The translations under genes and the position numbers were made by a program. A stretch of DNA of 64,000 nt from NCBI RefSeq assembly GCF_000948975.2, contig NZ_CP059735.1:5268603-5332602 (forward strand), in the 5' to 3' direction. This document shows, one piece after another, positions 4,432 through 16,553 of the stretch (position 1 is the stretch's first letter; the number at the start of each line of letters is the position of its first letter). The stretch comes from Thalassomonas actiniarum (lineage in GTDB: Bacteria > Pseudomonadota > Gammaproteobacteria > Enterobacterales > Alteromonadaceae). The notes beneath the pieces were generated by a model. It made no database searches, had not been told where the DNA came from, and saw nothing but the letters and a program-made list of their open reading frames with translations.

Positions 4432-5286
4432 ATGAAACTGATTATCGTCAGTGGCCGTAGCGGTTCGGGAAAAACCGTCGCCCTGCGGGTACTGGAAGAT
4501 TTAGGCTATTATTGCGTTGATAATATCCCGGTTAACCTGTTGCCGGCCTTAACCCATACCGTGATTAACGACTACGAGAATGTCGCCGTCAGCCTGGATG
4601 TCCGCAACCTGCCGGACGAACCCGGCGATATCGCGGAAATGATCGATTACCTGCCAAAATCGGTGGAGCTGAATTTCCTTTATCTCGATGCCAATGACGC
4701 CGATTTGATCAAACGTTTTAGCGAAACCCGGCGTTTGCACCCGCTGATCCGCCGCAATATTCCGCTGGATCAGGCCCTGTCGCTGGAGAAAAAATTACTG
4801 GAGCCGGTATCGAGCCGGGCCGATTTATTTATCGACACCAGCCAGCTTTCCCCCCATCAGCTGTCAGACTTGGTCAGGGAGCGTATTTTAGGCAAGAAAT
4901 CCGGCTCTATGGTGCTGGTGTTTGAATCCTTTGGTTTCAAGCACGGCATACCGCCCGATGCCGATTATGTTTTTGATGCCAGGTTTTTACCCAACCCGTT
5001 CTGGGAGAAAGATCTCAAAGGTTTTACCGGTTTGGAGCAGCCGGTAAAAGACTTTCTCAGCAGCCAGCCGCTGGTGACAAAATTTATCTGGCAAATCAAC
5101 AGTTTTATGCTGACCTGGCTGCCTCACTTGGAGCGCAATAACCGCAGCTATGTCACCATTGCCATCGGCTGTACCGGCGGCAAGCATAGATCGGTATACA
5201 TTGCCGAGCTATTGGCGAATAACTTTCGCAAAGAGCGGGATGATGTGCAGTCCCACCACAGGGATATCGGCATCACAGCAAGCTAA
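4432..5286 (+). CDS. rapZ: RNase adapter protein RapZ
   Basis: 284 residues, standard RapZ/YvcJ length. The N-terminal P-loop is GRSGSGKT (residues 8-15). The Walker B-like region and the C-terminal conserved block TIAIGCTGGKHRSVYIAELL are present. In E. coli RapZ senses glucosamine-6-phosphate and presents the sRNA GlmZ to RNase E. Its place between ptsN and npr is conserved. The C-terminus has a short extension, SHHRDIGITAS. Confidence 0.95.
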   Translation: MKLIIVSGRSGSGKTVALRVLEDLGYYCVDNIPVNLLPALTHTVINDYENVAVSLDVRNLPDEPGDIAEMIDYLPKSVELNFLYLDANDADLIKRFSETRRLHPLIRRNIPLDQALSLEKKLLEPVSSRADLFIDTSQLSPHQLSDLVRERILGKKSGSMVLVFESFGFKHGIPPDADYVFDARFLPNPFWEKDLKGFTGLEQPVKDFLSSQPLVTKFIWQINSFMLTWLPHLERNNRSYVTIAIGCTGGKHRSVYIAELLANNFRKERDDVQSHHRDIGITAS

Positions 5287-7314: not shown

Positions 7315-8658
7315 TTAATTACCGGCAACCTGCATTTCATCAATCAATAATGAACCTGTGCGTATGCTGCCTTTCATATCGGTATCACTGCCGACCGCCA
7401 CCAGGCCTTTAAACATATCTTTTAAATTACCGGCTATGGTGATTTCCGATACCGGGTAGGCTATTTTGCCGTTTTCTACCCAGAAGCCGGCAGCGCCGCG
7501 GGAATAATCACCGTTGACCACGTTCACCCCCTGCCCCATCAATTCGGTCACCAGCAAACCTGTGCCCAACTGTTTCAGCATAGCATCGAAATCGCCGCCG
7601 TTAGCCGTGACCAGCCAGTTATGGATGCCGCCGGCATGGCCTGTGGTACTTAAACCTAATTTCCTGGCGGAATAACTGGTCAACAGGTAACTTTGCAGCT
7701 GACCGTTAACTATGATATCCCTGTCTGTGGTTTTCACCCCTTCGCTGTCGAAAGGGCTGCTCGCCAGAGCCTTGGCCAGATGCGGACGCTCATGGATAGA
7801 TAAAAATTCAGGAAATATTTCCTGCCCTAAGGCATCAACCAAAAATGAAGATTTTCGGTATAAATTACCGCCGCTGTTGGCAGCAATAAAGTGGCCAAAA
7901 ATGGTATTGGCAATATCCGCCCGGAACATGACCGGCACTTTAGCCGTTGACAGCTTATGGCTGTTCAGCCGTGACAAGACTTCTTCTGAGGCCTGTTCGC
8001 CTATGGTTTTACCGTCAACCAGGCCTGCAAAGTCACGGTTGACGGTATAGGCATAATCCCGCTGCATATCATCGCCGTCACTGGCGATCATCACGCAACT
8101 GAGGCTATGGCGGCTACTGGGATACCCCACCAGCTGGCCGTGACTGTTACCATAGACCTTAAAGCCTTCAAAACTTGCCAAGGTCGCGCCGTCAGAGTTG
8201 GTAATGCGCTTATCAAAGCCGAGGCCGGCATCTTCACATTCTTTGGCGATGGCAATCGCCTGATCTGTGCTCATCTCATGGGGATGATATAAGTCCAGAT
8301 CAAGAGGGTCCATCGCCAGCAGCTCTTTATCCGCCAGACCGGCACAATCATCTACCGAAGTATATTTAGCAATATCCACCGCCGCCTGAACCGATTTCGC
8401 CAGGGCAGCTTCGGATAAATCTGCGGTTGAAGCACTGCCTTTACGTCCGTCCTGATAAACCGTGATCCCCAGAGCGCCGTCATTGGTAAACTCGACATTT
8501 TCAACATCGCCAAGGCGGGTACTGACACTTAATCCCTGCTGACGGCTCATGGCAACCTCGGCGCCGTCAGCCCCTAAAGACTTGGCGAGTTCGAGCACTT
8601 TAGCTACACGTGTTTTTACCTGATCTACTTGTTCAAGAAGACTGTTTGATTCGCTCAT
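7315..8658 (-). CDS. pmbA: metalloprotease PmbA (TldE)
   Basis: 447 residues of the TldD/PmbA family. The family signs include [37 protein letters not shown] and the C-terminal [15 protein letters not shown] block. PmbA pairs with TldD as a cytoplasmic zinc protease that matures microcin B17 and degrades CcdA in E. coli. The family also acts on unfolded modified peptides. The subunit itself lacks the zinc site, which is in TldD. It is divergent from darP, as in many gammaproteobacteria. Its closeness to the lanthipeptide genes is probably only this conserved pmbA-darP synteny. Confidence 0.94.
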
Positions 8659-8775
8659 GATGTTATTTTTTATCCTGCTGCCACGCTAACATACAGTGCA
8701 TTCCAAGATTAAGGTTTTTTGCCTTAACTGCTTTGTTGTATACTAGAGACATTATTTCTTTTGATAACAAACATT

Positions 8776-9294
8776 ATGCACCACTCTTCACACGATATCG
8801 ACGAATTAGATGAAGATCTGAAAAGTAAATCTGAAATAAAAAGAGAAATGCACCAGTTGCAGGAATTTGCCCTGCAATTGGTAAAGATGTCCAAGCATCA
8901 GCGCAGCCGCTTGCCGCTCACGGAGAGCTTACAGGAAGCCATGGTGCTTGCGGATAAAATTCAGAATAAACACGAAGCTTTAAGCCGTCATATCCGCTAT
9001 ATTGCCAAGGTATTGTCGGAAACCGACCTGGCCCCTATCCACCAGGCCATGGATGTGATGGCCAACAAACATCAGCAGGAAACCGCCAAATTTGTCCGCC
9101 TGGAACAGCTCAGGGATGAATTAATTGAACAAGGGGCAGATGCCATTGAAGCCCTGCTGGCAGAATACCCGGGGCTGGAACGGCAAAAATTACGCCAGCT
9201 GGTCCGCCATGCCGCCAAAGAAAAGGCCGCCGAGAAAACCGGCAAGCATTATAAAAACCTGTTCAGCTATTTAAAAGAAAACGCTCAAGGTTAA
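8776..9294 (+). CDS. darP: ribosome biogenesis factor DarP (YjgA)
   Basis: 172 residues from the ATG at 8776, preferred over the in-frame TTG at 8761. It matches the DUF615/YjgA family: SKSEIKREMHQLQEFALQLV near the start, then ALSRHIRYIAKVL, and AEYPGLERQKLRQLVRHAAKE near the end. DarP acts in late 50S subunit assembly. It is highly helical and charged. It is divergent from pmbA and ends at a terminator shared with the convergent lanthipeptide operon. Confidence 0.93.
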   Translation: MHHSSHDIDELDEDLKSKSEIKREMHQLQEFALQLVKMSKHQRSRLPLTESLQEAMVLADKIQNKHEALSRHIRYIAKVLSETDLAPIHQAMDVMANKHQQETAKFVRLEQLRDELIEQGADAIEALLAEYPGLERQKLRQLVRHAAKEKAAEKTGKHYKNLFSYLKENAQG

Positions 9295-9295
9295 T

Positions 9296-9335
9296 TAAAA
9301 AAGCAGAAGCCTGCTAAAGGCTTCTGCTTTTTCTC
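9296..9335. terminator. bidirectional terminator between darP and the lanthipeptide operon
   Basis: The stem AAAGCAGAAGCC / GGCTTCTGCTTT encloses a TGCTAAA loop, with A-run and T-run flanks. It ends both the rightward darP transcript and the leftward lan operon, setting the 3' boundary of the cluster just after the second precursor gene. Confidence 0.9.
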
Positions 9336-9348
9336 ATTCAGGTAAAAA

Positions 9349-9522
9349 TTACATCTCTACCTGACAATCTCCCCAGGCAACGGTATAGGTATGGGTGGTA
9401 ATATGCTCACAATCCTTCAAGGTCACAGCTCCACCATTAATGTCTTTAGTTTGCTCGTTCGGCAATTCATTTAAGTCTTTAGAAAGGTTAGCTAAATTTT
9501 TCTTTTTTAAAGTCAGTTTCAT
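9349..9522 (-). CDS. class I lanthipeptide precursor A2
   Basis: 57 residues, read by hand from ATG at 9522 to TAA at 9349. The leader (1-31) starts MKLTLKKKNLANLSKDLNEL and ends in INGG, a double-glycine cleavage motif. The 26-residue core begins AVTLKDC, contains only Thr as dehydratable residues (T34, T42, T43, T45, T47) and two Cys (C38, C53), and ends WGDCQVEM. T34-C38 has the spacing of a typical lanthionine A-ring. An AAGGA ribosome site lies 6 bases upstream. The leader is identical to that of A1 at 18 of 31 positions, but the core is unrelated. It is the last gene of lanC-lanB-A1-A2. Ring pattern and product activity cannot be read from the sequence. Confidence 0.85.
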   Translation of the reverse strand: MKLTLKKKNLANLSKDLNELPNEQTKDINGGAVTLKDCEHITTHTYTVAWGDCQVEM

Positions 9523-9541
9523 TTTTATTCCTTATTATCAA

Positions 9542-9712
9542 TTAAAAGCAGTCAACTTCACTCGGCTTACAAACACAACTATGCACAACCGACACTATGG
9601 TTTTGTTCGCTGAAGCCAAACCGCCGGCAATCGCTGCCGTTTCTTTTTTAGGCAAAAGGTTGACGTCATTGCTTAATTGCTTAACTGCTTTTTTTTTCAA
9701 AGTTAGTTTCAT
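9542..9712 (-). CDS. class I lanthipeptide precursor A1
   Basis: 56 residues, from ATG at 9712 to TAA at 9542. The leader starts MKLTLKKKAVKQLSNDVNLL and ends AIAGG (Gly30-Gly31). The 25-residue core is LASANKTIVSVVHSC followed by VCKPSEVDCF. It has three Cys (C46, C48, C55) and five Ser/Thr (S34, T38, S41, S45, S51), enough for up to three thioether rings. An AAGGAAG ribosome site precedes the start. The gene lies 24 bases after lanB and 19 bases before A2. The LSxDxNxLP block in both leaders probably takes the place of the FNLD-type recognition motif bound by LanB (inference). Standard callers can miss a gene this short. Confidence 0.87.
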   Translation of the reverse strand: MKLTLKKKAVKQLSNDVNLLPKKETAAIAGGLASANKTIVSVVHSCVCKPSEVDCF

Positions 9713-9736
9713 TTTTTTCTTCCTTATTGTTGTTTT

Positions 9737-12700
9737 CTAACTGTGTTTAAGGCTTGAATGGTAATACCGCCTTAAAAAGTCATATGCCACCAACTCCTGT
9801 TGTCGCCCGTAAGCCTTAAACATCCTGTTCGTATGCATATGTAATATGGAATTAAGCAGTGTTGTAATTTCACAGCCTAATACTCCATCCTTGTCCAGCG
9901 CCAGGATCGTTTTCACATCCGGCGCTATCAGCTCACTCCTTCGCTTGAGTATGCTGTTGATCTCACTAAACAGGGCATCATCGTTTTCTGATACCAGTGC
10001 TGTTTTTAATACTTGTTCATGTTCACGGAATTTTTCTCCCAGCTGTTTCCTTAACCGGGCATTCTCATTAAATTCTTTACCGTAACCTATGCGCAGGCCA
10101 TCCATTAATTCATACTTTTCCTGCATGGATAAGCCAAAATCATCAAGCAGGCGGTCGCAGCCTAAAATCGCGGCGTAACCGCGCGCGGTTTCATCATATT
10201 CAGCGCTCAGCTCGGCGGTTTCTATCGCGGTAATGCTGTCGGCGGCAAAGATATTCTCAACATAAGGCATTGAGGTTGCCCCGCCATAACGTTCCACTTC
10301 CCGATCATAGGTAAAGAGCTCTATCCGTTTTAACTGACCGTTTTGGATCAGGGGATCAAGCTCTGCATAACAGGCGGGTAATACCTGCTGCATCAGCTTG
10401 TCCGGTGCGCCATAAAAGCGCAGCCTTAAATGCCAGTCGGGATCGCCATAGCGGATAAAAAAGCTTTTCTCATATACCCCGCTTGCCTTGAGCTCTGCCA
10501 TGGCCGGCGCCAGCTTTTCAATCAGGGCCTTTTCGACCTGGCTGTTACCGCCGTATATTTTGATACTCAGCCATTCCGATCCCGGCATAAAATTACGCTT
10601 TCGGGCGTTTCTGTCCAGCTGGCGATCCGGATGATCGGCATAGACGGGCGATATCCGGGTATTTTTATTGATAAAAGGGATCAGCAATTCATGGGCAAAA
10701 TGCTGCCCCTGCTGCTGCAATTTACTCGGAAAAACGTGCACGACGGACTCTTTTAACGTGACCTTCTGCGCATATTTTATTTCGCTGAGTAAGATCTCAA
10801 AGCAGATGGGATTTAATAAATCCAGGGTCAAGACATTATCGGCAACCGAATAGGTCACCACCCGGGGTAAATTAAACTTCTTCAGCAAAGCCTGAACCTT
10901 GTCGGCAAAATCATTATCCGGCTTAATTTTCTCCAATTCGGCTTTATCCAGGCGCCAGGTCCGGGGCGCTAAAATGATATTATCGAGTTTGACTCTGGGC
11001 GTGTAGGCAACATTATTCAGGCTTGCCGGCCAGGAAAAATTCGGTGCCGAGACTTCCTGGTGCTGTAACATGCACAGGAACTTGTAGATCCCCAGGCTAC
11101 GGCTGGAATAATTATGGGCAGAAGACAAGCGCGGAATGATTTGCTTGTTTAAACGTTTAGACCACAGTTTCACCAGACTGCCTTCAACACAAACATAGAG
11201 ATCACTGACCGGGATCTGCTTATCCGAACTTAAACTGGTATCCGCCAGGAAGACAATCTCATGCTCCCTGAGCCTTGGCCGGGCGATAACATTGCCGGGG
11301 CGGCCTTCGGGTAAATGGACAATTTCGGCAAAAACGGCATCCGGCTGTAAGGCTTCTTCTTTTTCTAAATGCTGTTTCACGTTCTGATACAGTTTGTCAT
11401 CCAAATGACAAAAGCGCCCCATCAGATTGCCGGCAGACGGACCTGAGATCCCCTGAAAATGTATTTGTTCCCGGCCATGCTCATCGTTATGCAAGGAACA
11501 CATCACAGAAAAAGAACCCGGCAATTGCGGCACGGTTTTAATATCGGCGGTCAATTTTTTCAGTTCTTTTTTACTGAGTCTCAGCTCTTCGGTATTACTG
11601 CCCTCACTCAGGGCAATTTTATCCAGCAATAAAGATTCCAGGGCATTAGCTGCCGGTAGTTTACCTTCGCCGCCATTGACGATTAATTGCAAGCCTGCCA
11701 GCAGCGGCGTTTCATAACCGGTATCATCGGTATAGGAGATCCCCGATTCATCATCGAGCAGGTAACTTAAGGGGACAAACTGCCCTTCAAAGCGTTTATT
11801 AAACTCAGTGGTAAAGGTTTCCAGGGCGTTATTTTTACGGTAACAGGCCTTATGGAGCAGGGTCAGGCTATCGAGCAACTGCCGGGTACTCGACTCGGAC
11901 AGGGTCAGGTTTTCACCGCCTTTAAACCAGTCCACCTGGAATAATTTACTTTCTTCCACTTCAAACGGCAGTGCTTTTAGTTGCTGATAAATGGCTTTAT
12001 AGTCACCGATATCGGCGCCGCTGGCTTTATCTATCTCATTTATCCTGTGTACTGCCGTCATTATCGCATCCGCCAGCTCACCCTCTCCCAGCGCTACCAG
12101 TTGTTTCGCCAATAAGGTCGCCGGCTCGGGATCGGTCAGCGACAATAGCAGCTCCGGCACCAGGACCCCTTCTTCTACCAGGGAAGCAAAATATTCATCG
12201 ATATCTTCGCTGTCGGCTTCCGGGAAGCTGGCTTTAAAGTCTGCTTTTAACCGGCCTAATAGCTGTACCTGCTGACAGTTTTGCCGGAGCCAGGTAATAC
12301 ACTCATCGATTTCCACCGAACTCAGACGATAATGACGGGCATCTTTCGATTGATAGGCTTCTATGTATCTAAGCTGATCCCCTACCGGGTAACTGCTGGT
12401 ATTGAGTTTCACCTTAAGGCCGGGATTATCCGCCAGCTTTTTCGCCAGCAAGTCTTTAATTGACGACAGATAAAACATATCCAGCCGGGTAATGCGGCGG
12501 CTCGCTAAATCGGCGGGTAATTCAAACCGGTTTTCCTGAGCTATTTCACCATTGGAGATCCCGGAAAATAAGCCAAACGGTGTCGGACGCGAACACATGC
12601 GGATAAAATATTTCGCCAGCGAATGAATCAGCTTTTTCTCTTGTTTGCTGCCGGGTTTGACTTTCCACTCCAACAGCCGCTCGCATAATGACGGACTGGC

Positions 12701-12859
12701 AATATAAAGCGCCTCTTTCACCCCCGGCTGCTCCAGCCAGGATTTTAACGCTTGTACTAATTCACTGTGTTCACCTTGCCACCGGGTTAGTGTCTCAAAG
12801 GAGAACTTAGGGGAGCGGGCAAGAAAAAAGTTATCTGCGTATACCGAATTGTTTTGCAT
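9737..12859 (-). CDS. lanB: lanthipeptide dehydratase LanB
   Basis: 1040 residues, the size of full-length class I LanB enzymes. The N-terminal glutamylation domain has the family motif RPTPFGLFSG (residues 91-100). The C-terminal elimination (SpaB_C / thiopeptide-type) domain begins near residue 750 with EWLSIKIYGG and contains FFIRYGDPDWHLRLRF near residue 800. LanB glutamylates Ser/Thr in the precursor with Glu-tRNA and eliminates glutamate to give Dha/Dhb. Both halves are fused, so it is not a split-LanB system. It is transcribed after lanC (10-base gap) and before two precursor genes. Confidence 0.94.
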   Translation of the reverse strand: MQNNSVYADNFFLARSPKFSFETLTRWQGEHSELVQALKSWLEQPGVKEALYIASPSLCERLLEWKVKPGSKQEKKLIHSLAKYFIRMCSRPTPFGLFSGISNGEIAQENRFELPADLASRRITRLDMFYLSSIKDLLAKKLADNPGLKVKLNTSSYPVGDQLRYIEAYQSKDARHYRLSSVEIDECITWLRQNCQQVQLLGRLKADFKASFPEADSEDIDEYFASLVEEGVLVPELLLSLTDPEPATLLAKQLVALGEGELADAIMTAVHRINEIDKASGADIGDYKAIYQQLKALPFEVEESKLFQVDWFKGGENLTLSESSTRQLLDSLTLLHKACYRKNNALETFTTEFNKRFEGQFVPLSYLLDDESGISYTDDTGYETPLLAGLQLIVNGGEGKLPAANALESLLLDKIALSEGSNTEELRLSKKELKKLTADIKTVPQLPGSFSVMCSLHNDEHGREQIHFQGISGPSAGNLMGRFCHLDDKLYQNVKQHLEKEEALQPDAVFAEIVHLPEGRPGNVIARPRLREHEIVFLADTSLSSDKQIPVSDLYVCVEGSLVKLWSKRLNKQIIPRLSSAHNYSSRSLGIYKFLCMLQHQEVSAPNFSWPASLNNVAYTPRVKLDNIILAPRTWRLDKAELEKIKPDNDFADKVQALLKKFNLPRVVTYSVADNVLTLDLLNPICFEILLSEIKYAQKVTLKESVVHVFPSKLQQQGQHFAHELLIPFINKNTRISPVYADHPDRQLDRNARKRNFMPGSEWLSIKIYGGNSQVEKALIEKLAPAMAELKASGVYEKSFFIRYGDPDWHLRLRFYGAPDKLMQQVLPACYAELDPLIQNGQLKRIELFTYDREVERYGGATSMPYVENIFAADSITAIETAELSAEYDETARGYAAILGCDRLLDDFGLSMQEKYELMDGLRIGYGKEFNENARLRKQLGEKFREHEQVLKTALVSENDDALFSEINSILKRRSELIAPDVKTILALDKDGVLGCEITTLLNSILHMHTNRMFKAYGRQQELVAYDFLRRYYHSSLKHS

Positions 12860-12869
12860 TTATAAATCC

Positions 12870-14069
12870 TTATTGAAGTAGCAAACATTCCGACCAGTCG
12901 GATGAATGCCCTAACGCTGATAACAGGCATAAACCTACGCCTGTATATCCTTCAAGTAAACCTGACTCAGACAGATAACATTCATCAGCCACCGAGTATT
13001 TATCAAACCCGTTGAGACCATCGCGCTCAAAGCGCGCTAAAGTATGATCCAGCCAATATTGGGCTGTAATGAAAAGTTCAGGAGCATCAAACAGTTCACC
13101 GGCTTGCTGGTACATCAAACATATTCCCGCACTGCCATGGCAAATACCGGCATCGAACACACCCGAGTCATCATCTAAACGTTTGCTGGTAGCCAGCATC
13201 AGCTGGCGGGAGAATTGAAAGAGTACGTCATCGGCTAATAATTTGCCGGCCCTGCCGAGGATCAGGGCATTGCTTAAGTCACCGTAACACCAGCCCAACC
13301 GGGTATGGCCGTTGGTGCAAGCGGAATAAGCATAACGGGAGCCGGGTTCTTTTTCTTCCCGGGTCTGGGACATCAGCCATTGACAGCAAGAAGCCAGCAC
13401 AGGTTCAAACTCAGCCCTTAAAGCCGGGTAGTGCTGACACACACAAGTTAATACCGCAATGACCCCGGGCACGCCGTGGGCGAGGCCTAAATTAAACTCG
13501 GGGGCTTGCTTGTTAAAGCTATAAACAGAATCGACAGCAGTTTCCCAGGCATGACCGTCGGCGGTGGCTGTAGAATATTGTAATAACAGCTGTAGTGCTT
13601 GTCGCAGCAGGCTTATATCCCGGGTGCCCCGTGCCCGTCGCTGGATAAAAGTGATATAGCCTAGCAAACCGGAGATAAATTCATACTCTCCCTGCCAGTT
13701 TTCGCTCAGGTGCTGCTTAAGTAACAGCTCCAGCTCTTCATTGATTTCACCGTTATAGTCATCTTGTTGCAGCAAAAATTCGAATAACCAGCCGATACCG
13801 GAAAGTCCGCTGCTAAACGCCAGTTGGTGGCCTAGTTGCGCTAAGTTTGTTTGAATGGCATCAAGCCTTTCATCAACCGCATCCTGTGCCGGCATTTCAG
13901 GGTAGGCGCATCCGAGCTGCCATAAGAAAACCACTTCTCCGCCAATACCGCCAAATAAAGACAAATCCTTCTCGGCCAGGGGCTTTGCAGTTAATTCCTG
14001 CAAAATGCGTTCAAGCGCCAATTTACATTTTGCTTGCTGCTCATCTTTAACAATTTTCTGCCACTTCAT
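12870..14069 (-). CDS. lanC: lanthipeptide cyclase LanC
   Basis: 399 residues of the LanC-like alpha-toroid family. The active-site histidine is in GLAHGVPG (His198), and the zinc ligands are in GWCYGD (Cys261) and GICHGSAG (Cys310, His311), so all catalytic positions are present. Repeated G-x-G segments (FGGIGGE, SSGLSGIGW, FISGLLGY, ESGLLEGYTGVGL) fit the double-barrel fold. LanC adds Cys thiols to Dha/Dhb to close lanthionine rings. As the first gene of the operon it is probably transcribed from the promoter near 14154. Confidence 0.95.
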   Translation of the reverse strand: MKWQKIVKDEQQAKCKLALERILQELTAKPLAEKDLSLFGGIGGEVVFLWQLGCAYPEMPAQDAVDERLDAIQTNLAQLGHQLAFSSGLSGIGWLFEFLLQQDDYNGEINEELELLLKQHLSENWQGEYEFISGLLGYITFIQRRARGTRDISLLRQALQLLLQYSTATADGHAWETAVDSVYSFNKQAPEFNLGLAHGVPGVIAVLTCVCQHYPALRAEFEPVLASCCQWLMSQTREEKEPGSRYAYSACTNGHTRLGWCYGDLSNALILGRAGKLLADDVLFQFSRQLMLATSKRLDDDSGVFDAGICHGSAGICLMYQQAGELFDAPELFITAQYWLDHTLARFERDGLNGFDKYSVADECYLSESGLLEGYTGVGLCLLSALGHSSDWSECLLLQ

Positions 14070-14849: not shown

Positions 14850-14926
14850 TGGCGGACGCGGCAGGAGTCGAACCTGCGACCGCCTGGTTCGTAGCCAGGT
14901 ACTCTATCCAGCTGAGCTACGCGTCC
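14850..14926 (-). tRNA. tRNA-Arg (ACG)
   Basis: 77 bases including encoded CCA. Acceptor stem GGACGCG pairs with CGCGTCC, discriminator G. The anticodon loop CTACGAA gives anticodon ACG, the one edited to ICG to read CGU/CGC/CGA. D-loop AGCTGGATAGAGT and T-loop GGTTCGACTCC are normal. It lies 4 bases after tRNA-Ser and is identical to the copies at 16228 and 16381. Confidence 0.95.
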
Positions 14927-14928
14927 GC

Positions 14929-15022
<94 letters not shown>

Positions 15023-15353
15023 AGTGGGTGCGAATATTAATAGATCTAAAAAATATGTCAAATAATATTCGCAATAATCTCCTAAAAATTATCGAATAAA
15101 TATTAATTGGATAAAAAACAAACTCATTGATGAAAAACTTCCCGCATTATCATGCCAGGAGCCAAACCTGCGGCGACTAAATTCGTCAATCAACTCCTTC
15201 ACAGATAAAAGCCAGCCCAAAAATTTTAATGCCGGTCAATTAAGAGCTGACTGGCATTAGGCTTATTAGCCAACTGGCCATCAATTTTTCACGGGCTGTA
15301 ACTAATGAATATTTCAGCATATAAATACTAACATTTATCCTTGTCATGACTGT
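15023..15353. other. gap between tRNA block 1 and the pseudogene
   Basis: The first 38 bases belong to the duplicated flank. The rest is A+T-rich with no gene seen. A small inverted repeat at 15231-15258 (TGCCGGTCA / TGACTGGCA, one mismatch) lies just beyond the 3' end of the leftward pseudogene and may be its old terminator. Confidence 0.5.
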
Positions 15354-15854
15354 TTAATTCATGGTGCGATGCACGTCGCCTTCCAGGCTTTCTATATCAC
15401 TTATCATGACCTTGCCGTTACTAGCGTCATAGCCAGAAAAGTTATTCGAAAGATATTTACGGCCTTTATCAATATTGTTTAATGGCAGCGCATTTAAAAA
15501 ACCATTATTGTTTTCACCACGACCATAATACAAAATATTTGCGTCTATTTTTACGTGATAAAAGCCATTTAGCAGGGTTACTTAAGTTTTAGTAAGCTTA
15601 TTTACGTTAATGATTAAACCATCATCAAGTATAAGCAAACTGGCACGATATAAGGCATGAGTCTGTTGCTCAATTAAATAGCTATGTTCAGGATGCTGGC
15701 TATCTGTCAGTCCATAAGCCCAATTACCATTGAGCTGTTGAACTTTATTGTCAAACAAACTGACAACCACTAACTCGGGTATACCGTTATTAACCGTAGT
15801 GCTAGCCACCCCATTGTCTGTCAGCCAGTCAAGATTGATCAAAGAAAAATGCAC
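15354..15854 (-). pseudogene. remnant of an unrecognised protein, broken by an in-frame stop
   Basis: From a GTG at 15854 the frame runs 90 codons (with PELVVVSLFDNKVQQLNGNW and ALYRASLLILDDGLIINVNK) to TAA at 15582. The same frame then stays open for another 75 codons (VTLLNGFYHVKIDANILYYG, LNALPLNNIDKGRKYLSNNF, ISDIESLEGDVHRTMN) to TAA at 15354. Both parts look like protein, with beta-rich secreted-type sequence, so a single nonsense codon probably broke one gene. The 5' end is also degraded: no good start, ribosome site or signal peptide is seen, and upstream coding-like sequence is in another frame. I do not recognise the family. Confidence 0.6.
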
Positions 15855-16183
15855 AAAGCGCCGGAAGCGTATTCAGGAAAAATATCCCCGAGGTGCAGAG
15901 CAATAACTGCTGCTTATTTTATTCACCAAAGGACATGAAAATCATAATACCAATTTTATTAAATATCTAACCAGCTTCGGATGCTCTAAATCTCCAAGTC
16001 CTGCGTTGTTTTCAATCACAATAGCTTGCTATTGCTCAACCAAACGCCTCGCCTGCATGGATGCAGGTGCTTAGCTTTAGTCTGGAACGATAAAGGGGTT
16101 TCTTGAAAATTTATCCTCACCGAATTTGGGTCATCTACTTAATGCAACTGGTATAAATTCCGAATAAAAAAATCAGGACAAAA
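15855..16183. other. gap holding a dispersed repeat
   Basis: No gene is seen. Most of the gap is the terminally inverted repeat at 15947-16154; the left 90 bases are decayed 5' sequence of the pseudogene. Confidence 0.6.
15947..16154. repeat. 208-bp non-coding repeat with terminal inverted ends, copy 1
   Basis: It begins ATACCAA and ends TGGTAT. Internally it shares with 38372-38530 the core CAATAGCTTGCTATT, a preceding gtt/caatc segment, and a following block of the form tttatcctca..gaatttgggtca. No reading frame is conserved. The layout (inverted ends, internal palindrome, no coding) resembles a MITE or REP-like interspersed element. It lies between the pseudogene and tRNA block 2. Confidence 0.65.
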
Positions 16184-16211
16184 AAAAGCCCGACTTAAAA
16201 GTCGGGCTTTC
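16184..16211 (-). terminator. terminator of the second tRNA block
   Basis: The stem AAAGCCCGACTT / AAGTCGGGCTTT with an AA loop is followed leftward by a T-run. It lies 17 bases beyond the last tRNA-Arg. Confidence 0.88.
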
Positions 16212-16227
16212 TCTTCCACATGGAATG

Positions 16228-16304
16228 TGGCGGACGCGGCAGGAGTCGAACCTGCGACCGCCTGGTTCGTAGCCAGGTACTCTATCCAGCTGAGCTACGC
16301 GTCC
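16228..16304 (-). tRNA. tRNA-Arg (ACG)
   Basis: 77 bases, same sequence as the other two tRNA-Arg copies: acceptor GGACGCG/CGCGTCC, anticodon ACG, CCA encoded. It is the distal gene of the Ser-Arg-Arg block. Confidence 0.95.
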
Positions 16305-16380
16305 GCGGTATATTAATTTCTTTATCCAGTCTTAATATAAACTGTCACTTTCATTGCTGCCACTTTATCAGAAGAAAAAG

Positions 16381-16457
16381 TGGCGGACGCGGCAGGAGTC
16401 GAACCTGCGACCGCCTGGTTCGTAGCCAGGTACTCTATCCAGCTGAGCTACGCGTCC
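16381..16457 (-). tRNA. tRNA-Arg (ACG)
   Basis: 77 bases, identical in the tRNA body to 16228-16304 and 14850-14926. It lies 4 bases after tRNA-Ser. The 76-base spacer to the next tRNA-Arg contains nothing recognisable. Confidence 0.95.
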
Positions 16458-16459
16458 GC

Positions 16460-16553
<94 letters not shown>

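Follow-up and report, generated by a model that had tools for sequence, protein, structure and literature searches.

The window considered here is a stretch of 64,000 nucleotides from Thalassomonas actiniarum (NCBI RefSeq assembly GCF_000948975.2, contig NZ_CP059735.1, positions 5,268,603 to 5,332,602). On its minus strand, it contains an operon for class I lanthipeptide biosynthesis in the order lanC-lanB-lanA1-lanA2, which is discussed below together with precursor genes of the same leader family dispersed in this genome and in its relatives. The locus comprises the following features:

12870-14069, minus strand: lanC (probable tlnC), a lanthipeptide cyclase of 399 amino acids (aa), identified by its open reading frame (ORF), Pfam, residues and congener identity
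9737-12859, minus strand: lanB (probable tlnB), a full-length dehydratase of 1040 aa, identified by its ORF and by Pfam for the N and C halves
9542-9712, minus strand: lanA1, a precursor of 56 aa, identified by its ORF, a leader profile match and AAGGAA just upstream
9349-9522, minus strand: lanA2, a precursor of 57 aa, identified by its ORF, a leader profile match and AAGGAA just upstream
9303-9327, bidirectional: intrinsic terminator in the interval between lanA2 and yjgA, with a perfect 9-bp stem and T runs on both strands

All four ORFs are intact in the ORF list of the window and are separated, down the operon, by 10, 24 and 19 bases. The initial annotation had read the same unit at 9349-14069, with gaps of 24 and 19 bases before the precursor genes and a closing terminator, and was accurate on each of these points, the terminator stem being formed by 9303-9311 pairing with 9319-9327. 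LanC matches the Pfam LANC_like family (E 2.5e-35) and possesses His198, Cys261, Cys310 and His311, which we take to be the zinc ligands and catalytic residues and which, as had been claimed, are all present; they are identical in 12 of 12 aligned LanC proteins. This enzyme shares 98, 89 and 83% identity with the LanC encoded at the same place in three congeners. The claim of a full-length LanB is likewise borne out by matches to both Lant_dehydr_N (PF04738, E 4.6e-136) and Lant_dehydr_C (PF14028, E 9.7e-63), and the protein thus carries the glutamylation and the elimination halves. Its relatives of solved structure are 9g04 and NisB (4wd9), and it aligns along NisB, including the stretches RPTPFG, DPDWHLRLR, EVERYGG and HMHTNR, whose NisB counterparts presumably hold catalytic residues.

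With a full-length LanB, the LanC residues and adjacent precursors made of a leader and a Ser/Thr/Cys-containing core, the locus is, judging from its sequence, of class I. Its attribution to a marine gammaproteobacterium was also right, the closest named genome being that of Thalassomonas sp. RHCl1, in which LanB is 98% identical and the A1 core is the same. The operon had also been called complete, which overstates the case: no exporter, leader peptidase or immunity gene was seen among the ORFs of the locus, which is therefore not self-contained. In what follows, G000 designates the T. actiniarum genome of the window and G001, G002 and G003 three other Thalassomonas genomes. One PF04738 match and one PF14028 match were obtained in the whole of G000, hence a single LanB over the cut-off, and each of the four genomes has one. 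Both precursor types occur beside lanB in all three congeners searched, and the locus thus withstands the refutation which the initial annotation had named, namely a lack of conserved precursors in related strains with lanB/lanC.

Each precursor of the operon has a 31-aa leader ending in GG (lanA1, 9620-9712; lanA2, 9430-9522), followed by a core of 25 aa with 3 Cys in lanA1 (9545-9619) and of 26 aa with 2 Cys in lanA2 (9352-9429). Neither matches a Pfam family at E 1. The cut-offs of the NCBIfam lant_leader models are not reached by lanA2 (13 bits versus 27 for L1b, 10.1 versus 22 for L1a), lanA1 matches neither model, and none of 10 other precursors scanned against the leader libraries exceeded any curated cut-off. 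The cores had been thought to match no known lantibiotic. This view was rejected, as they fit the description of the thalassomonasins: in the relevant passages of a 2024 review, thalassomonasin A is given as 25 aa with 3 Cys and thalassomonasin B as 26 aa with 2 Cys, the pair originating from tlnA1 and tlnA2 of Thalassomonas actiniarum, with leaders of 29 aa, that is, the 31-aa leader found here minus GG (PMC11433236). The tln cluster (T. actiniarum NBRC 104231; MIBiG BGC0002640), as presented there, is similarly a class I cluster with two precursors and the same core lengths and Cys counts, and those passages do not mention scattered precursors. Thalassomonasins are also listed as expressed in E. 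coli in the corresponding part of a second review, and thioether-ringed products are reported for T. actiniarum in these reviews. Judged by the description of its cores, the operon very likely corresponds to the published tln cluster or to a close counterpart; three core fragments used as literature search words matched no paper.

The same review passages describe the viridisins of Thalassomonas viridans XOM25, encoded by vdsA1-A3, with 4 Cys in the first, 2 Cys in each of the next two and 25-aa cores quoted (PMC11433236). The G001 locus also has three precursors with 4, 2 and 2 Cys, and its second core is 25 aa long, as quoted, whereas its first core counts 26 aa after GG and not 25; G001 would thus be T. 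viridans. This viridisin-type locus differs from the T. actiniarum operon in having three precursors instead of two and 4 Cys instead of 3 in the first core. It also contains an extra leader frame (L017 4641-4733) which ends early at a stop, with a short core-like frame downstream (4530-4616), apparently a decayed precursor as far as the reading frames indicate.

A search with a profile of the 31-aa leader (threshold E <= 1e-5) recovered 29 leader-bearing precursors in G000, 23 in G001, 29 in G002 and 14 in G003. Those of G000 are lanA1, lanA2 and 27 others, and six of the 29 are located on the second replicon. On the main replicon, lanB has only A1 and A2 in its vicinity; the closest of the other precursors is 120.8 kb off, and the rest lie at distances of 194 kb to 3.2 Mb. 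Among the 27 scattered genes, 19 are solitary, one array contains four and two places have two each. By eye, the leader consensus is close to MKLKLNKKKLKNLSKDNKALPAEMTPQVGGG. The scattered cores are hypervariable and mostly Cys- and Thr-rich; core Cys counts range from 0 to 5, and 27 of the 29 cores have at least one Cys and at least one Ser/Thr. A motif resembling a ribosome-binding site (RBS) precedes 25 of the 29 genes, versus 4.4% of random 16-mers, and no common motif beyond the RBS was found upstream of the precursors, 7-mer and 8-mer counts being like those of shuffles.

The possibility that these genes belong to hidden clusters was rejected after Pfam scans of their neighbours, L186 and L187 lying outside that scan: among 39 neighbours of 19 loci, 30 were matched, none of them as a lanthipeptide enzyme, and nine had no match. 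The notable neighbours were one exporter pair (L184), a further HlyD-type protein (L174) and a non-ribosomal peptide synthetase (L167), and L186 is ~4 kb from a second C39 gene.

The cores of the scattered precursors carry a spacing signature. In a set of 72 non-redundant scattered cores, Ser/Thr occurs 2-6 residues upstream of Cys in 170 of 188 cases, versus 123.7 (sd 5.6) expected when the other residues are shuffled and Cys is held in place (z 8.3). This set leaves out precursors beside lanB, lanC or LanM, a precursor from the lanB contig of genome G203 (42 leaders, for which 20 stretches with 28 matches were fetched), and near-duplicates (109 to 72). The Cys-fixed test replaced an earlier, looser shuffle, in which Cys was free and lanB-side cores were included (306/345 versus 201.3). 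Ser/Thr peaks at -3 and -5 from Cys, as in the cores beside lanB/lanC, for which 33 non-redundant sequences gave an upstream Ser/Thr at 129 of 148 Cys (97.8 expected, z 6.1). In the scattered cores, the residue classes GP, DE, AV and NQ showed no enrichment upstream of Cys. Such an excess is expected for lanthionine rings, unlike disulphides.

Between orthologous cores, Cys is kept at 34 of 37 positions in the comparison with G001 and 27 of 27 in that with G003, more often than the background residues, counted without Cys, Ser, Thr, Gly and Pro (111/204 and 116/166, respectively); Ser/Thr is kept at 52 of 67 positions in one species comparison (p 0.0009). Three comparisons (23, 10 and 13 pairs of the 29 genes, lanA1 and lanA2 included) gave ratios of nonsynonymous to synonymous change (dN/dS) of 0.11-0.19 in cores and 0.08-0.13 in leaders, values which are rough, synonymous change being near saturation versus G001. 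Among the 13 G000/G001 pairs, one is probably mispaired (41% identity); among the ten G000/G003 pairs, one includes a leader frame that lacks its start, which shifts the core boundary. One truncated G001 frame of <40 aa was dropped before the ortholog comparison. These low ratios indicate that the precursor genes with orthologs are under purifying selection.

The leader family also follows LanB from genome to genome. Among 99 genomes of the Pseudoalteromonas group, the leader is present in 47 and LanB in 47, the two sets being identical, and 52 genomes have neither (Fisher p 2e-29, a statistic which ignores kinship); proteobacterial LanB is thus not rare, although its loci had been introduced as less studied. 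Leader-bearing genomes of this group have 1 to 42 leaders (median 13, 717 in total), with one full-length LanB frame in 45 of the 47 and two in the remaining 2. In a family sample of 147 genomes, which overlaps with the former and in which both searches were run with the same settings, the leader occurs in 15 genomes, every one of which belongs to the 22 that have a LanB domain (genomes lacking a match are named only in part), these counts ignoring ancestry as well. Chance profile hits were rejected as an explanation, since the leader was found, on the first look of the search tool, in 0 of 125 LanB-free genomes of the family sample and in 0 of 52 in the Pseudoalteromonas group.

Two further components of a possible pathway are encoded away from the operon in T. 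actiniarum. The first is a stand-alone LanC at C1:2734934, which has no adjoining LanB, retains the four residues and is 65% identical to the LanC of the Colwellia cluster described below and 37% to that of the operon; two scattered precursors are ~10 and ~13 kb from it. The second is an HlyD/C39-ABC exporter pair at about 6.39 Mb of C1, unlinked from lanB, which is 75, 78 and 63% identical to the cluster exporters of Colwellia, Pseudoalteromonas and Rheinheimera, respectively. There are four other C39 proteins in G000, and the two compared with the cluster exporters reached at most 61% (L027) and 29% (L038).

In Colwellia (G027), Rheinheimera (G019) and Pseudoalteromonas (G020), HlyD-like and exporter genes, the latter identified because they align with the C39 exporter of L184 (itself confirmed by Pfam), are adjacent to lanB/lanC. 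The LanB of these lanC-lanB clusters is 43-46% identical to that of the operon. In the Colwellia and Rheinheimera clusters, precursors of the same leader family are found beside lanC, and on a P. caenipelagi contig a same-family precursor is about 7.9 kb from lanB. In contrast to these clusters, Thalassomonas has its exporter, its second LanC and most of its precursors unlinked from lanB. The pci cluster of P. citrea is reported as expressed in the part of the source concerned with it (PMC9993889).

Considering this gene set, it is quite probable that one LanB works in trans on dispersed precursors, forming a class I system of which LanB is the hub enzyme. Translation of each solitary precursor gene would begin at its own start. 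LanB would bind the shared leader and dehydrate Ser and Thr with glutamyl-tRNA. LanC1 (from the operon) and/or LanC2 (C1:2734934) would then close thioether rings onto Cys, and the C39 domain of the unlinked exporter would cut after GG/GA and release the peptide. The order of these steps and the choice of partners follow from knowledge of the class I pathway and from the genes available. More broadly, it seems likely that marine Alteromonadales possess a combinatorial class I library, in which the substrates of one LanB, working in trans, would number up to some 40 dispersed precursors, as a class I counterpart of the prochlorosin system, and that many lanB-lanC clusters seemingly without precursors when mined as clusters have large unlinked substrate sets.

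Several observations weigh against this proposal. No chemistry has been observed for any scattered peptide, and their modification is predicted from sequence. The leaders of lanA1 and lanA2 read KKKAVKQLSND or KKKNLANLSKD versus NKKKLKNLSKD in the scattered precursors, and one LanB would therefore need to accept both. Ser/Thr is also enriched downstream of Cys, to a smaller extent (113 versus 93.8, z 3.6), and in the second species comparison its conservation was not significantly above that of other residues (41/53 versus 116/166, p 0.38). In the family sample, 2 of 16 genomes with a full-length LanB have no leader (14 have it); conversely, in one leader-bearing genome (G066) all LanB frames are broken and the leader frame contains a stop.

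An alternative which we consider unlikely, though the most probable of the rival readings, is that the operon is an ordinary two-peptide class I cluster serving its own A1 and A2, and that the scattered peptides are unmodified or disulphide-bonded, microcin-like products sharing only an exporter leader. C39 exporters recognise leaders that end in GG or GA; two of the 29 cores have no Cys, which also counts against LanB acting on every scattered precursor. As LanB and the exporter are neighbours in relatives, the co-occurrence of leader and LanB could stem from LanB and the exporter sharing one cluster and cannot alone separate the two readings. Two other results do bear on the choice: 1) the position of Ser/Thr 2-6 residues before Cys fits lanthionine formation and not disulphides, and 2) among 32 full-flank Pseudoalteromonas lanB loci from named genomes (nine of them P. 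luteoviolacea), 23 have no leader within about 6 kb, and LanB would be left there without substrate unless distant ones are used.

That another enzyme acts on the scattered precursors, either the LanM encoded on the second replicon of T. actiniarum, the only one in this genome, or an unrecognised modifier, appears improbable. LanM is present in three of the four Thalassomonas genomes, a G001 precursor with this leader is about 1 kb from LanM, two facts which also speak against LanB as the sole hub, and the nine unmatched proteins among the 39 scanned neighbours leave room for such a modifier. However, the 30 Pfam-matched neighbours include no lanthipeptide enzyme, and LanM was not found in G003, where 10 of the 14 leaders are remote from any lanB or lanC, nor in any of the 99 Pseudoalteromonas-group genomes, which have up to 42 leaders, the same search matching G000, G001 and G002 as a positive control. 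LanM as a general modifier was rejected on these absences. Finally, it is very doubtful that the operon has decayed or fallen silent: its lack of a visible exporter, peptidase and immunity gene would agree with such a state, as would the title of Thetsana et al. (2022), which calls the cluster cryptic, but all four frames are uninterrupted in this genome and in three congeners, LanC retains its residues, and products of the T. actiniarum cluster are reported from E. coli in the review passages cited above.

Action of one LanB on dispersed precursors would be reminiscent of the cyanobacterial prochlorosins and synechococsins, in which one enzyme serves many precursors (ProcM with 29 ProcA, SyncM with 79 SyncA) and, according to the relevant part of the source, the precursors are hypervariable and partly solitary among unrelated genes (PMC10783134). 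Many scattered precursors, one leader type and variable cores are found here as well. The prochlorosin and synechococsin systems rely on a class II LanM and Nif11 leaders, whereas LanB, LanC and a short leader are found here in place of LanM and Nif11. This dispersed class I system is apparently undescribed so far: no prior description of scattered class I precursors was found in open-licence full texts, a scope outside which the original Thalassomonas papers may mention them.

The operon itself is thus probably known; through its leader family, it would be what can be seen of a larger system. If this is true, a LanB/LanC pair would serve dozens of natural substrates as a promiscuous class I platform, like ProcM and SyncM but with glutamyl-tRNA chemistry, and the Pseudoalteromonas lanB clusters without a visible precursor would be explained. 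Genome mining limited by distance, such as the search of Walker et al. (2020), confined according to the passage concerned to seven genes around a LanC-domain protein (PMC7268733), leaves dispersed precursors invisible. The scattered precursors also provide a list of peptides to seek in culture.

Some members of the leader family have unusual features. The precursor located beside the unlinked exporter (L184 7466-7666) lacks Cys in each of the four Thalassomonas genomes and is an odd member of the family. In Bowmanella denitrificans (L097 4253-4648), a precursor near a LanB of this family has a repetitive core with CGSTCGST-like units. A precursor of the Pseudoalteromonas group (L275 2011-2217) and one of G000 (L169 5745-5960) have similar cores, and their homology is limited to the precursor gene (169 bp, 77%), the flanks being unlike in the stretches compared; it would seem that precursor genes can relocate or transfer singly, between genera as well. 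Another scattered precursor is next to a gene (L179 9610-10494) of the NPP1 family of necrosis-inducing proteins. As regards LanC, G003, which is devoid of LanM, encodes a third LanC (L022 7800-9269) with its own adjoining precursor and no LanB in the 18 kb fetched, and 22 records of a plasmid collection have a distant LanC, all with <60% identity.

The operon is flanked by yjgA and pmbA on the lanA2 side and by tRNA genes, followed by lysC and alaS (both recognised from sequence), on the lanC side. The genes yjgA and pmbA (window 7315-9294) abut the operon and accompany lanC, lanB and the precursors in all three other Thalassomonas genomes searched; the lysC side is visible in two of them, the contig of the third ending soon after lanC. 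Finding the same operon and neighbours in three congeners indicates an arrangement exceeding chance. TldD/TldE is a leader peptidase for microcin B17, and pmbA (TldE) is conceivable as a leader protease, although it is probably a chance neighbour. A pattern scan detected a shorter form of the 9303-9327 terminator among 10 terminator-like sites in total (7.2 expected), and a promoter scan remained at chance level (9 sites versus 10.2 expected). On the other side, five tRNA genes adjoin the operon at 14850-16553. They form two Arg-Ser pairs, one at 14850-15022, Arg(acg)-Ser(gct), and the other at 16381-16553, with an additional Arg(acg), and this set is a local duplication.

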